Source: Phycisphaerae bacterium (lineage in GTDB: Bacteria; Planctomycetota; Phycisphaerae; Phycisphaerales; UBA1924). From it: 35,349 bases of DNA. The stretch lies in contig JAEUIV010000116.1 of assembly GCA_016795005.1 (NCBI GenBank), positions 1 to 35,349 of the forward strand, given 5' to 3'. Of the stretch, positions 5,528-11,378 are shown in pieces. The first letter of the stretch is position 1. Each line of letters begins with the position of its first letter. The notes under the pieces are model-generated. The model searched no databases. It was given only the letters and a program-made list of their open reading frames with translations, and was not told the origin of the DNA. The position numbers and the translations under genes were made by a program.

Positions 5528-6940
5528 TCACGGGCACTGCGCGCCGAAGTTCGTCAGCACCGCCGTGATATCGGAGAAGTTCACCACCCCGTTGTGGTTC
5601 GCGTCCCCCGGCCCGGTCGTCCCGGCGGGGCCGGGGTAGGTCGCCCCCCAGTGGGTCAGCACCGCCGTGATATCGGCGAAGGTCACCGAGTTATCGTTGG
5701 TTGCATCGCCCGTGGCGGGCGCATGGAAGTTGTAGAAGTAGGCCGACCCCGCGAAGAGCCCCGCGCTCCCGCCGCTCAAGGAGCCGACGAGCGCCCACTC
5801 ACCGCGGACGACCAGTGAGATGGCGTACGAATCGAACGCCGCGGCGTTGCCCGCCGACACCACCGAGTTCGTCTGCTGCCATTCGCCGGCCGGCTTGATG
5901 AACGTGTACGCGGCCCCGGAGTCCGGGCCGGCCAGCCCATCGTTCGAGTACCCGCCCACGAAGACCTTTCGTCCGTCGGTCCCCACCGCATTGCCGAAAT
6001 AATCACCCGTGCCCGTGTTGGAGCCGACCGTCTTGAACGATTCGCTCCAATCCACGCCGTTCCATTCGAAGAAATACGCCGCTCCCGCGTCGATCCCCGC
6101 GGAATCATCCCGCGGCGCGCCGACCACTGCGATGTCCCCGACGATGTGGACCGCGAAGCCAAACCACTTCTCCTGCTCGGGGTCGCTGGGGGCGATCTTC
6201 GCCTGCTTGAACCAGAAGGAGCCGTTCCAGATGTAGATGTACGCCGCCCCGCTCTCGATCTGGCTCTGGTCGTTGAACAGGGAGCCGATGATCGCGCGCT
6301 GGCCGTCGAGATACACCGCGCTGCCGAAGTAGTCCGCTTCCGTCGCGTCGGTGGCGATGATCTTCTCTTCAAGAGTCCACGTGTCGCCCGCAAGCCTGAA
6401 CACATAGACCGCTCCGGCATCGGGGCCGGCCTCGAAGTCCGCCGGGTCGCCGATCATGGCGCGCCCCTGCGAGATCGAGACCGACGAGCCGAACTCGGTC
6501 CCCGGGAACACGGTCAGTTTCTGCTTCTGCACCCACGTGCCGTTCACCCGCTGATAGATGTACGCCGCGCCCGGCAGGTCGTTGCCCTCGCCGTCGTCCG
6601 TCCCCGGCGCGCCGACAATCGCGTAATCGCCGAAGACCCCGACGGACGTGCCGAAGTACGAGCCTTCCGCTCCATCCGAGGCCGTGAGCTTGCCGTCCGG
6701 GACCCACGTGCTCCCGACTCGCCGGTACACGTACGCCGCGCCGACTCCGTCCTGGAGAAACGCGCCGATGATCGCGCGGTCAGCCGGATCGCCCGACATC
6801 GCCACGGCCGCTCCGAACAGACTGAAGAACGAGGCATCGGCTGGCTGAACACGCTGAACTTCCATCGGCTCGCACTGCGCCGCCGCCTCGATCGAAACGC
6901 ACGCCGCCGCCAACAGACCGATCGCCTTCCAAATCTGCAT
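5528..6940 (-). CDS. Secreted FG-GAP beta-propeller protein with two dockerin-like repeats
   Basis: A 470-residue exported protein. MQIWKAIGLLAAACVSIEA is a signal peptide ending near an Ala-rich cleavage site. Seven repeats follow, each with an FG-x-x-V core and a GAAY(V/I)Y end (LFGAAVAM, YFGTSVGV, EFGSSVSI, YFGSAVYL, WFGFAVHI, YFGNAVGT, and a worn FDSYAISL). That number fits an integrin-alpha-like seven-bladed propeller. The C-terminus has two calcium-loop dockerin-like repeats, GDATNDNSVTFADITAVL and GDANHNGVVNFSDITAVL, and ends in Cys-Pro. The propeller probably binds a surface ligand and the dockerin part anchors the protein; both roles are inference. GGGAG about 8 nt upstream supports ATG 6940. 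The frame is open further upstream, but that part is antisense to the permease gene. Confidence 0.88.
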   Translation of the reverse strand: MQIWKAIGLLAAACVSIEAAAQCEPMEVQRVQPADASFFSLFGAAVAMSGDPADRAIIGAFLQDGVGAAYVYRRVGSTWVPDGKLTASDGAEGSYFGTSVGVFGDYAIVGAPGTDDGEGNDLPGAAYIYQRVNGTWVQKQKLTVFPGTEFGSSVSISQGRAMIGDPADFEAGPDAGAVYVFRLAGDTWTLEEKIIATDATEADYFGSAVYLDGQRAIIGSLFNDQSQIESGAAYIYIWNGSFWFKQAKIAPSDPEQEKWFGFAVHIVGDIAVVGAPRDDSAGIDAGAAYFFEWNGVDWSESFKTVGSNTGTGDYFGNAVGTDGRKVFVGGYSNDGLAGPDSGAAYTFIKPAGEWQQTNSVVSAGNAAAFDSYAISLVVRGEWALVGSLSGGSAGLFAGSAYFYNFHAPATGDATNDNSVTFADITAVLTHWGATYPGPAGTTGPGDANHNGVVNFSDITAVLTNFGAQCP

Positions 6941-7042
6941 CGTTCGTTCTCCCACCCCCGAAGAAGGATACGCATCGCCCGCGCTCGCGGCTCCGGGCCG
7001 CTCCGATCTTCCCGTGGTTAGTATTCGAGCCTCGCCCAACGC

Positions 7043-8548
7043 ATGTACCAGGCACTCCTCACACGCCGCTACCTCTTCAGCAAGATCATGCCGCTGCTCT
7101 CCGCCGCGGCGGTCATGCTCTGCACCGCGATGGTCCTCGTCGTCTGGTCCGTCATGGGCGGCTTCCTCACCATGCTGCTGGCGCAGGGCAAGAGCATGAT
7201 CGGCGATGTTTCGATCACCTGGCCCGTGCAGGGCATCCCGCGATACGAGCGCCTCATCGAGATGATCGAGGCCGATCCGCTCGCCGAGGCCGCGACTCCC
7301 ATGATCGAAACCCTCGGCCTGCTCGGCCTTCCCTCGACCGACACCAAGCCCGTCTCCGTGCTCGGCGTCGATCCCGCGGGGTACCACCACGTCACCGGCT
7401 ACTTTGACCGGCTCTGGTGGAGGCCGCTGGACGCGCCACTGCCGCGCGACGTGAACCGCCACGATCCGAGGCTCGACAATCCGCGCATGGCCGAGTGGCT
7501 CCTTCACGGTGAACGACTCGCCGAACCCGACCCCATCACCGGGATCGAACGCCCGGCCATCGTCCTGGGCATCCAGGTCACGGGCTACAACAATGTCCGC
7601 GAACGCGAGGGCTTCTACACCACCAATCACTACGACATGCCCACCCGGGACGTCACCCTCAGCGTCCTCCCGCTCTCGCAGCGAGGCGTGGCGATCGACA
7701 TGGCCGCCGCACGATTCCCCGTCGCCAACGAGTTCCGCACGGGCCTCTACCAGGCCGACGCCGAGTGGGTCATCCTCCCGCTGCCGGTCCTCCAGCGCAT
7801 GCTCCGCCTCGACCGCGCCGAGCGCGTCCGCCCCGGCCCGACGCGCGTCGTCCGCGACGAGGCGACCGGGGAAGAACGCTTCGAGGAGCCGACGATCGTC
7901 GAAGAACTGCCCGCGCGCGCCACCACCATCCTCATCAAGGCCGCCCCCGGCGTCTCCCCCGACGTGCTGCGCGAGCGCGCCGCCGAAATCTACGAGGCGT
8001 TCGCGAAGGAGATCGGCCCCGCCGCGCCCCCCGCGAGCCGCATCCCCATCTTCACCTGGGAGAACAAGCCGGGGCTGAAGATGTTCATCGGCGCCGTGAA
8101 GAAAGAGACATCCCTCGTCCTCGTCCTCTTCTCCTTCATCTCGCTCACCGCGGTCTTCCTGATTTTCTCGATCTTCTGGTCGATGATCAGCGAAAAGACC
8201 AAGGACATCGGCGTCCTGCGGGCGATCGGCGCCGGTCGGGCCGGGGTGGCGTGGCTCTTCGTCCGCTACGGCCTGGCGATCGGCATCACCGGCTCGCTTC
8301 TCGGGCTTGGGCTTGCGTACATCGTGGTGACGAACATCAATCCGATCCACGAGTGGCTGGGCACGGCGCTCGGCATCCAGGTATGGGACCCGGAGGTCTA
8401 TTACTTCGACACCATCCCGAACCACGTCGATCCGCTCCGCGCCGCGATCGTCGGCGGCTTCGGCGTGCTCTCCAGTGCGCTGGGCGCGCTCATTCCCGCG
8501 ATCCGGGCGGCGTTTATGGACCCGGTGCGGGCGCTGCGGTTTGAATGA
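7043..8548 (+). CDS. FtsX-like ABC transporter permease (LolC/E or MacB type)
   Basis: A 501-residue inner-membrane permease. One membrane helix lies near residues 16-40. A large periplasmic domain follows, and three helices lie near 356-380, 404-428 and 466-490, the FtsX/MacB topology. The conserved segment KTKDIGVLRAIGAGRAGVAWLF joins the helices, and the C-terminal DPVRALRFE matches the usual end of FtsX-domain permeases. Relatives work with a cytosolic ATPase to move lipoproteins or other envelope substrates. No ATPase gene is adjacent, so the partner must be encoded elsewhere. The start ATG lacks a clear Shine-Dalgarno sequence. It is divergent from the beta-propeller gene, with 102 nt between them. 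Confidence 0.9.
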   Translation: MYQALLTRRYLFSKIMPLLSAAAVMLCTAMVLVVWSVMGGFLTMLLAQGKSMIGDVSITWPVQGIPRYERLIEMIEADPLAEAATPMIETLGLLGLPSTDTKPVSVLGVDPAGYHHVTGYFDRLWWRPLDAPLPRDVNRHDPRLDNPRMAEWLLHGERLAEPDPITGIERPAIVLGIQVTGYNNVREREGFYTTNHYDMPTRDVTLSVLPLSQRGVAIDMAAARFPVANEFRTGLYQADAEWVILPLPVLQRMLRLDRAERVRPGPTRVVRDEATGEERFEEPTIVEELPARATTILIKAAPGVSPDVLRERAAEIYEAFAKEIGPAAPPASRIPIFTWENKPGLKMFIGAVKKETSLVLVLFSFISLTAVFLIFSIFWSMISEKTKDIGVLRAIGAGRAGVAWLFVRYGLAIGITGSLLGLGLAYIVVTNINPIHEWLGTALGIQVWDPEVYYFDTIPNHVDPLRAAIVGGFGVLSSALGALIPAIRAAFMDPVRALRFE

Positions 8549-8684
8549 GGGCCTGTGATTGGCAGCGGTCTCCCCGGACCGAGCGGCCGAAAACCTTTCA
8601 CCAGAAAGCAGCCAGAGAATAATTGACCGGTGGTGATTTCCGTGACACATTGGATGAGCCGCACCCACCGGAGGCTCGATTGTG

Positions 8685-9335
8685 ATGCACGAATGCCTGA
8701 ACGCCGCTGCGATCATCACTTTGGTCGGGGCGCACACTTCCATCGCCGTTGCCTCGTCGCCCGACCGCTTTCCGACGGTTCTCACTGAATCCGCTTCTGA
8801 TCGCGGAAGCGAGCCCGCGGGGTTCGGGCCGGACATCGCCACGGTGGATGTGACCGGCATCCCGAGCTGGGACGCCCTCGGCTCGCCGAACAACGTGGTG
8901 ATGTATCTGTGGGTCGGCCCTTTCAATCAAGTGATGGGCATCGGCTGGGATGTCGTCTTGCAGACGATCATCCCAACATCATGGCGGTCGGAGATCATTG
9001 TTCAGATCAGTGACAGCGCGGGGGGAAGTATTGGCGGTCTCAGTCCCGGACTTGACGGATCTCCCGGCGGCTCGACACGCTACACCAGCGCCGGTCAGAT
9101 AATTAATCTTGCGCAAAATGGGCATCCGAATATTGTCGCTTTAGGTGATGGACTCCTGCGACTCGAGTTCTTCGAATCGTACGACGATGTCGCCGGTCAG
9201 ATCGATGGATTGTGGGTGAGCGGCGCCCTGCAGTTGCAGACGATCCATCAAATCCCGCCGATCCCCGCGCCTGCGGCAGCAGGATTGCTGCTCGCTGCGG
9301 GTTTTAGCGGAATTCGTCGAAAACACAGACTGTGA
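8685..9335 (+). CDS. Secreted protein with PEP-CTERM-like sorting tail
   Basis: About 216 residues. The N-terminus (CLNAAAIITLVGAHTSIAVA) is a signal peptide. The central part has no motif I can name; it is rich in Gly, Ser and Asp with predicted beta character. The C-terminus reads IPAPAAAGLLLAAGFSGIRRK: a proline/alanine motif, a short hydrophobic segment and a basic tail. This is the three-part layout of exosortase (PEP-CTERM) substrates, which are cleaved and anchored at the surface. GGAGG at 8670-8674 lies 10 nt before ATG 8685 and 7 nt before GTG 8682, so either start is possible. It follows the permease by about 135 nt and is convergent with the trypsin-like gene. No exosortase gene is in view. 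Confidence 0.72.
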   Translation: MHECLNAAAIITLVGAHTSIAVASSPDRFPTVLTESASDRGSEPAGFGPDIATVDVTGIPSWDALGSPNNVVMYLWVGPFNQVMGIGWDVVLQTIIPTSWRSEIIVQISDSAGGSIGGLSPGLDGSPGGSTRYTSAGQIINLAQNGHPNIVALGDGLLRLEFFESYDDVAGQIDGLWVSGALQLQTIHQIPPIPAPAAAGLLLAAGFSGIRRKHRL

Positions 9336-9379: not shown

Positions 9380-10723
9380 TCAGGGTGGGGTGCACCCAAT
9401 GCTTACATCGGCGCACGCCACGTCGCCGTCGAGTTCGAGCGAGCGCACGCTGGCAATGATGGACAAATCATCCTCGTCAATCGCCCCGTCGCAGTTCAAA
9501 TCCCCCTGGCACCAATGCAAGATGCCGGGGCAGGATGCGCAGAGGCAACTGGTATTCAACCTTTCCTCGACGAAGTCCTCATCATCCTGATTGACTCTTC
9601 CGTCGAGGTTCGCGTCGCCGTAGCACCACTGGAACCGGTCGCACATCCGAGATGGATAGAATGAACTATTTGCGGCCAACCAACTCAAGTCCGGCGCGTT
9701 GGCTGCGTAACCATCTTGGTTGATATCGAGCAGGCATCCACAGTTGACGGCGTACGGTGAGATCAACGCGTAGACTGTGTAGTCAGACGAGTTGACCTTT
9801 CCATCCGGGCCTGTATACGCCCCATGAGGAGTTTCAGGGTCGCCAGCCACGTCAACGCACGGCGCCGGCCTGCACGGCTGGCACAAATACTCCGTCCCGC
9901 TTGGATCGGAGAAGAACTGATGCCTTGCTGCAATGAACTCTCCTCCTAAGCCGATCAGCACCCCGACTAGCCGGAGCGACCCGTCCATCATCCCGACCGC
10001 AATGGCACCGCCGGAGTCATGGAAGTTGTAGTAGGGAAGACATGCACCGTTCTCGACGCAGGAACCCGCGTGAAGCGCGATCTGGCTGTTCCGACCGTTC
10101 ATCTCACAGTTGATGTAGTCGATCGTGTTTGAAGCAACGTGCAGGCTCCGCGCCTCGACCAGTTCACATTCCTCGTCGTACGTCCGGCCCCAGCCCGCGA
10201 TGTACACAGGCTGCTCCCGGCAGACCTCCAAGTCGTAGGGCGACGCAACGATCATCGGTGTCACTTGGTCCAGGCACTCGATGTCCTCCTCCTCGATCTC
10301 CCCCACCAACACGCAGTCGGTCCCGAAGAATGAGCCCGAGGCCATCGTGAAGCAGGTCACGCGAACCCGCACCACCCCATCAACCTCGCATCCGCCCGGA
10401 ATCGAGATGCACTCGAAGGCAGGCGGCGGCCACGGGGGCGGATCGGCGCACTTATAGAAATAGGCGTACCAGTTGTCGGTTTGCACGCAGTCGCCCGCGC
10501 TGCCGCCGGAAGAGATGAAGTGCCGCGCCCTGACGATGCCGAGGTGATCGACTTCTTCCCCATCCGTCCAGCGTACGAGGGTTCCGGAGCCGGTTGGATA
10601 CCACGCCCCGTCGTAGGTGCGGTCGCGCGGAGCAAGGCCGCACACTGCCCAGAACTTCTGCGGCGGCTCGTCAGTGCCGCAGGTGATGACGCGAGCCTCA
10701 AAGGCAGACGTCATGCCTGTCAC
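9380..10723 (-). CDS. Trypsin-like serine peptidase with EF-hand/dockerin-like repeats; signal peptide apparently interrupted
   Basis: Read from GTG 10723 the product is 447 residues. A chymotrypsin-type triad can be traced: His68 in VRARHFIS after GSGTLV, Asp147 in EEEDIECL, and Ser237 in NFHDSGGA, with VYIAGWGRT between. The usual TAAHC and GDSGG signatures are altered, so activity is uncertain. Many paired cysteines suggest an extracellular fold. The C-terminal 170 residues hold calcium-loop repeats: GPDGKVNSSDY, DINQDGYAANAPD, GDANLDGRVNQDD and GDLNCDGAIDEDD. A signal peptide would be expected but is missing from this start. In frame upstream lies ATG 10759, Lys, TAG (10751-10753), then FRRLPLCAAVTGMTSA, a good export signal. 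The gene is probably a recent nonsense allele or contains a base error. Confidence 0.75.
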   Translation of the reverse strand: MTGMTSAFEARVITCGTDEPPQKFWAVCGLAPRDRTYDGAWYPTGSGTLVRWTDGEEVDHLGIVRARHFISSGGSAGDCVQTDNWYAYFYKCADPPPWPPPAFECISIPGGCEVDGVVRVRVTCFTMASGSFFGTDCVLVGEIEEEDIECLDQVTPMIVASPYDLEVCREQPVYIAGWGRTYDEECELVEARSLHVASNTIDYINCEMNGRNSQIALHAGSCVENGACLPYYNFHDSGGAIAVGMMDGSLRLVGVLIGLGGEFIAARHQFFSDPSGTEYLCQPCRPAPCVDVAGDPETPHGAYTGPDGKVNSSDYTVYALISPYAVNCGCLLDINQDGYAANAPDLSWLAANSSFYPSRMCDRFQWCYGDANLDGRVNQDDEDFVEERLNTSCLCASCPGILHWCQGDLNCDGAIDEDDLSIIASVRSLELDGDVACADVSIGCTPP

Positions 10724-10750
10724 CGCCGCACATAACGGAAGTCGCCTGAA

Positions 10751-10753
10751 CTA
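10751..10753 (-). other. In-frame TAG at codon 3 of the presumed native start
   Basis: Minus-strand codons from 10759 read ATG-AAA-TAG-TTC-AGG-CGA and continue in the trypsin-like frame. Without the TAG the peptide would have a basic n-region, a hydrophobic core and an Ala-ending c-region. A GGGCGG stretch lies just upstream of the ATG as a weak ribosome binding site. Confidence 0.55.
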
Positions 10754-10832
10754 TTTCATGTTTCCGCCCTTGCAGGAGCCTTGAGGATAACCGCGTGACT
10801 GATGTTATCAACACCAGCATTTCTGGCTCGCT

Positions 10833-11378
10833 TCACCGCCGCTCCATCTGATTCTCCGTGAAACGCCTCACCGAGGCGCGCACCTCCGCCGTCGCCGCCT
10901 CGATCCCGGTCCAGCCGCCGGACTCGACCGTCACCCCTTCCAGCGTCTTGTACGTCGTGAAGAAGTGCTCGACCTCGCGGAGGAAGTGCTTGGGGACATC
11001 TTCGAGCGTGTGGTACTCGGCAAAGAGAGGGTCGGTGTTCGGCACCCCGAGCAACTTGAAGTCGTCCTTCCCCTTGTCCCGCATGTTGAACATGCCGATC
11101 ACACGCGCCTCGATCAGGCACCCGCTGAACGTCGGCTCGTTCACCATCACCAGGATGTCCAGGGGATCGCCGTCGTCCGCCAGCGTCTGCGGCACAAACC
11201 CGTAGTCGCCCGGATAGTGCGACGCCGAATACAGGTAGCGATCCAACTTGATCAGCCCCGTCTTCTTGTCCAGTTCAAACTTCGACCGACGACCCTTCGT
11301 GATCTCGATGATCGAGTTGACGGCGTAGGGAATGTTCTTGCCCGGCGAAACATGGGCCAGGTCACGGCGGTTGATCAT
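10833..11378 (-). CDS. ppa: Inorganic pyrophosphatase, family I
   Basis: Hydrolyses pyrophosphate to two phosphates in the cytoplasm, pulling biosynthetic reactions forward. At 181 residues it has the standard soluble family I length. Visible signatures are KFELDKKTGLIKLDRYL, HYPGDYGFVPQTLADDGDPLDILV (with the three metal-binding acidic residues of the DGDPLD motif), and KDDFKLLGVP. GGAGG about 8 nt before ATG 11378 fixes the start. It is divergent from the adenine methyltransferase (50 nt between the starts). The trypsin-like gene lies downstream on the same strand, and that gene's presumed native ATG at 10759 is about 73 nt beyond the ppa stop. Confidence 0.97.
   Translation of the reverse strand: MINRRDLAHVSPGKNIPYAVNSIIEITKGRRSKFELDKKTGLIKLDRYLYSASHYPGDYGFVPQTLADDGDPLDILVMVNEPTFSGCLIEARVIGMFNMRDKGKDDFKLLGVPNTDPLFAEYHTLEDVPKHFLREVEHFFTTYKTLEGVTVESGGWTGIEAATAEVRASVRRFTENQMERR

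Follow-up and report, generated by a model that had tools for sequence, protein, structure and literature searches.

Three kinds of described systems come close to the locus considered here. In expanded gene families that undergo birth-and-death evolution, there are nonsense pseudogenes in which a single early stop interrupts a frame that otherwise looks intact, while sister copies are broken elsewhere and a complete gene is present in relatives. Members of Peptidase S1 have a trypsin fold with His, Asp and Ser motifs. PEP-CTERM/exosortase surface proteins have a signal peptide, a C-terminal PxP motif, a hydrophobic stretch and an RR-rich end. These features have their likes in two convergent genes of the window, by which we mean the whole stretch of 35,349 nucleotides that was analysed, and among the sister copies of one of them.

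We put at about three chances in four the following reading of the sequence. The protease gene in the window would be a recently inactivated pseudogene, belonging to a family of secreted trypsin-like proteases that has multiple copies, carries dockerin-like C-termini, is restricted to one genus and usually lies tail to tail with a PEP-CTERM-like protein (below, the partner). The window genome is a metagenome-type assembly of 225 contigs, 87% complete. The genus has a single other genome, that of Phycisphaerales bacterium SW_45 (below, the congener). Counting partial ones, about a dozen copies of the protease gene were found in the window genome and four in the congener.

Features of the protease locus in the window, and lesions of the sister copies in the window genome
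Feature	Positions	Strand	Basis
Partner: intact secreted protein with PEP-CTERM-like tail (IPPIPAPAAAGLLLAAGFSGIRRKHRL), convergent with the protease	8685..9335	+	
Ancestral start (ATG 10759-10757), codon 2 (AAA 10756-10754) and in-frame amber stop (TAG 10753-10751), then FRRLPLCAAVTGMTSAFEARVITCG	10751..10759	-	direct reading; alignment with sister-copy starts
Open frame after the TAG, 456 codons: trypsin-like body and dockerin-like repeats, closed by TGA 9382-9380	9380..10750	-	
Shine-Dalgarno-like purine-rich stretch AAGGGCGG upstream of the ATG	10764..10771	-	direct reading; similar stretch and spacing in sister copies
Remnant signal peptide FRRLPLCAAVTGMTSAFEARV	10688..10750	-	aligned with the leaders of 13 other copies
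Trypsin-fold domain, residues 27-279	9914..10672	-	AlphaFold model searched against PDB
Catalytic triad motifs: His77; Asp156; Ser246	10520-10522; 10283-10285; 10013-10015	-	alignment
Dockerin-like/EF-hand-like C-terminal repeats, about residues 320-456	9383..9793	-	Dockerin_1; PDB profile search
ppa (inorganic pyrophosphatase), upstream neighbour on the same strand	10833..11378	-	Pfam PF00719, E=1e-53
C13b: TAG at about residue 188			
C13a: frameshift near the C-terminus, homology continuing in another frame			
C171: TGA at about residue 115; end disrupted near contig edge			
C163: ATA at start-codon spacing			
C175b: AGG at start-codon spacing			
C65: TGA within the leader			
C146: frameshift, near contig edge			
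C114: protease core lost in frame			
C116, C125: fragments (C125 chimeric)			

An earlier note on this DNA had pointed to an in-frame ATG-AAA-TAG ahead of the trypsin-like frame, and direct reading of the minus strand bears this out. It had also held that GTG 10723 and ATG 10714 give no export signal, and we agree: both are in frame and downstream of the TAG, and neither yields a leader. Between the TAG and GTG 10723 there is no ATG, GTG or TTG. An alternative start that would restore the leader was considered and rejected, as the other two upstream frames contain no leader homologous to those of the family. The ATG lies 73 bases from ppa.

What makes this ATG more than a chance triplet is its position in the family alignment. 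An ATG stands one to four codons ahead of the base aligned with the post-TAG codon in ten sister copies, six from the same genome (C175a, C13a, C13b, C171, C16 and C65) and four from the congener (C106, C133, C185 and C367), and C145 has a GTG at the aligned start site. Nearly all of the aligned sister starts are followed by a signal peptide running into a conserved (V/I)x(C)G motif, and most are preceded by a Shine-Dalgarno-like stretch. Since sister copies in two genomes have a start and a leader at the homologous site, the TAG is a nonsense codon, the third codon of a genuine inherited leader. An in-frame stop where homologues have sense codons, here those of start and leader, is one of the marks of a nonsense pseudogene. 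The homologous leaders thus support the suggestion of a secreted protease silenced at codon 3, and homologous leader codons upstream are the opposite of what the earlier note had named as speaking against it. A search of the incomplete congener assembly for ppa, as a guide to an orthologue by synteny, gave no match, and so the comparisons are with sister copies only and not with a true orthologue.

If this is correct, ribosomes would initiate at the old ATG and terminate two codons further on, and no other start would regain the leader. Some reinitiation, weak at best, might occur at GTG 10723 or ATG 10714 and leave a leaderless, disulfide-rich protein in the cytoplasm. The lesion probably abolishes function.

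The codons after the TAG had been described as exactly an export signal. That a homologous leader is present holds true, but the wording is too strong. Among the leaders of 14 family copies, that of the window copy has the weakest hydrophobic core (the best hydropathy averaged over 10 residues is 1.71, versus 1.94-3.56 in the others), and it is the only one in which the aligned -1 residue is neither Ala nor Gly. What remains is a poor leader. At the other end, the frame lacks the Cys-Pro that most complete copies retain. The weak leader and the missing Cys-Pro indicate decay beyond one base, which weakens, without disproving, the idea that the stop is a mere base error.

The damage is not limited to the window. 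Among copies of the window genome with both ends readable, C175a is the only one undamaged in both frame and start, and in the congener two copies are intact and two are broken by TGA or TAA. As each copy carries a different lesion, the lesions are independent, with the qualification that several of them are close to the edges of contigs, the less dependable parts of an assembly. Contigs C16, C65, C145, C212, C114 and C146 end inside or beside protease copies, and the real number of copies is probably above the assembled one, given how many contig ends are so placed. In C163, beside the lost start, a Tyr is aligned with the catalytic Asp. An isolated protease fragment on C116 (contig positions 18414-18584) shares 95.6% identity with the C146 copy across 90 bp and looks like a recent recombination scar.

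Other families in the same genome were used for comparison. No in-frame stop was found there in 18 partner copies, 36 ABC transporter, 18 kinase and 59 FG-GAP/dockerin matches; TAG is thus not found inside many conserved genes, about 130 control matches being without a stop. In roughly 3,900 codons of the protease family there are 5 or more stops, compared with none in about 19,000 control codons (Fisher p about 1e-4, on codon totals approximated from match lengths). This comparison bears on the possibility, also raised in the earlier note, that the stop stems from an error in sequencing or consensus building, or is a minority metagenome allele, while the gene of the cell is intact. A single wrong base would suffice, and the assembly is of the metagenome type, with 225 contigs and 87% completeness. 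Against this stand the lack of stops in control codons of the same assembly, the several weak leader residues and the absent Cys-Pro, and the broken copies in the independent assembly of the congener. We consider a base error unlikely.

Another suggestion was that the stop is rescued by readthrough, with a UAG-decoding tRNA or leaky termination giving the full protein. The stop is indeed the sole block in an otherwise open frame. The search for a tRNA with a CUA anticodon yielded none among the 44 tRNAs of the window genome, all of which have ordinary anticodons; as this genome is 87% complete, the missing tRNA is not a proof of absence. TAG also serves as the normal terminator of two partner copies (L103 and L115) and of the protease copies C13b and, in the congener, C133. 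Moreover, the blocks in sister copies include all three stop codons (TAG, TGA and TAA) as well as frameshifts and missing starts, and a single suppressor would be no cure for all of these. Readthrough is, in our opinion, the least probable of the readings considered. With nearly all of about a dozen sister genes broken in different ways, the situation looks like ongoing gene loss rather than novel decoding of a stop codon. The whole protease family may be losing its selective value, or may be selected against, in this lineage.

What would be lost can be seen from the body of the protein. When searched against the PDB, the AlphaFold model matches chains with a trypsin fold; Z reaches 14.7, with 188 residues superposed at an rmsd of 3.5 Å, and many of the matches are tied when differences below 1 are treated as ties. 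Since the mean pLDDT of the model is 60, only the overall fold is used here. Against Pfam, the matches of the window protein to trypsin and dockerin are weak. Its score against PF00089 (Trypsin) is 15 bits (E=0.023), below the curated cut-off of 20.6, and for this reason we call the protein trypsin-like and not a member of PF00089. The residues His77, Asp156 and Ser246 are located, by alignment only, in motifs conserved across copies (RHF, DIECL and HDSGGA), and on this basis the catalytic triad is intact. Dockerin_1 was detected in 6 of 8 members of the protease family, and a family profile searched against PDB finds dockerin chains and, weakly, trypsin-like proteases.

A codon model of five copies gave a dN/dS of 0.11 on the window branch versus 0.14 elsewhere, and neutrality (dN/dS=1) is rejected for the window branch (2 delta lnL = 34.6). 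Because synonymous sites are saturated, these values show only that selection acted during most of the branch and that, measured against it, the loss came late. With the body having evolved under strong purifying selection, the earlier suggestion of a late loss is supported.

The same conservation could come from selection that still acts on a product lacking the leader, made from GTG 10723 or ATG 10714 and working inside the cell. Both starts are in frame and the body is intact and conserved in sequence. However, selection on the body was measured on the whole branch, most of which preceded the lesion, the many conserved cysteines and the dockerin-like Ca-binding repeats fit an exported protein, and starts of this kind were not seen in use in any relative. 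An intracellular role of this kind seems to us quite improbable, more so than a base error.

A further speculation concerns where the lesions fall. Nonsense codons and lost starts are concentrated at the N-terminus (the window copy, C65, C125, C163 and C175b; binomial about 0.001 or less, post hoc). As the clustering was noticed post hoc, involves few events and includes one chimeric copy (C125), we do not use it as evidence for the main claim. It might be taken to mean that copies with a broken start or leader form a silent archive and act as recombination donors to an expressed copy, as in antigenic variation. There are many copies of which few are intact, and short near-identical patches are shared by some of them (C146 and C116). 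Nevertheless, protein-level similarity between the copies is only about 36-68%, the copies retain ribosome-binding-site-like stretches of their own, and around the window copy there are no shared recombination repeats, only chance-like pairs. We regard a silent archive as very improbable. In a more specific form of this idea, damage would prefer starts and signal peptides and spare the bodies because the copies would serve as a silent reserve from which a surface protease, itself paired with PEP-CTERM-like proteins, could be switched by recombination. Our confidence in that proposal is very low as well.

The partner has fared differently from the protease. Its relatives are convergent to most protease copies that retain a 3' end. 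About 18 copies are present in the window genome, and relatives occur in 59 of the 163 genomes of the GTDB family; no stop was found in those 18 copies or in about 130 matches across the 59 genomes. As no NCBIfam or Pfam model, PEP-CTERM models included, matches the partner, the name PEP-CTERM-like refers solely to how its tail is built. On C146 there is a tandem pair of partner genes (1251-1874 and 2136-2789), and on C173 a partner was found with no protease beside it in the stretch examined. On the other side of the partner in the window, an FG-GAP repeat protein (5528-8926, minus strand) ends in a GC-type dockerin-like domain common to several dozen genes of the genome; the start listed for it, a TTG, would make it overlap the partner gene, and the likely start is near 8640.

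A search of 163 genomes from the GTDB family, together with a sample of 400 from the order, detected the protease family in the window genome and the congener alone; in a third genome the match is limited to the dockerin part. At six partner loci checked in other genera, no protease lies beside the partner. As far as sampled, the pair is a genus-level arrangement of which the protease half is being lost. Literature on Planctomycetes, PEP-CTERM, proteases and pseudogenes yielded nothing on this protease family.

Taken alone, the window gene is an ordinary nonsense pseudogene, with the practical warning that annotation would call a leaderless protease of 447 residues at this locus. It is less ordinary that, in two congeneric genomes, the copies of one secreted protease family have been broken one by one while the partner and the other tested families are free of stops. 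Whatever the cause, the case offers a natural experiment on the reasons for which a bacterium drops, or is selected to silence, an exported protease.

The likeness to each of the known systems is partial. The partner differs from PEP-CTERM/exosortase proteins in having no NCBIfam or Pfam model and in its tail-to-tail pairing with a protease, a pairing seen in this genus only. The protease family differs from Peptidase S1 in its extra cysteines, its cysteine-rich insertion and its dockerin-like tail, and in being confined to one genus. Finally, unlike in typical birth-and-death pseudogenes, the damage falls mainly on one secreted family within a planctomycete genome, the other families tested there being clean.
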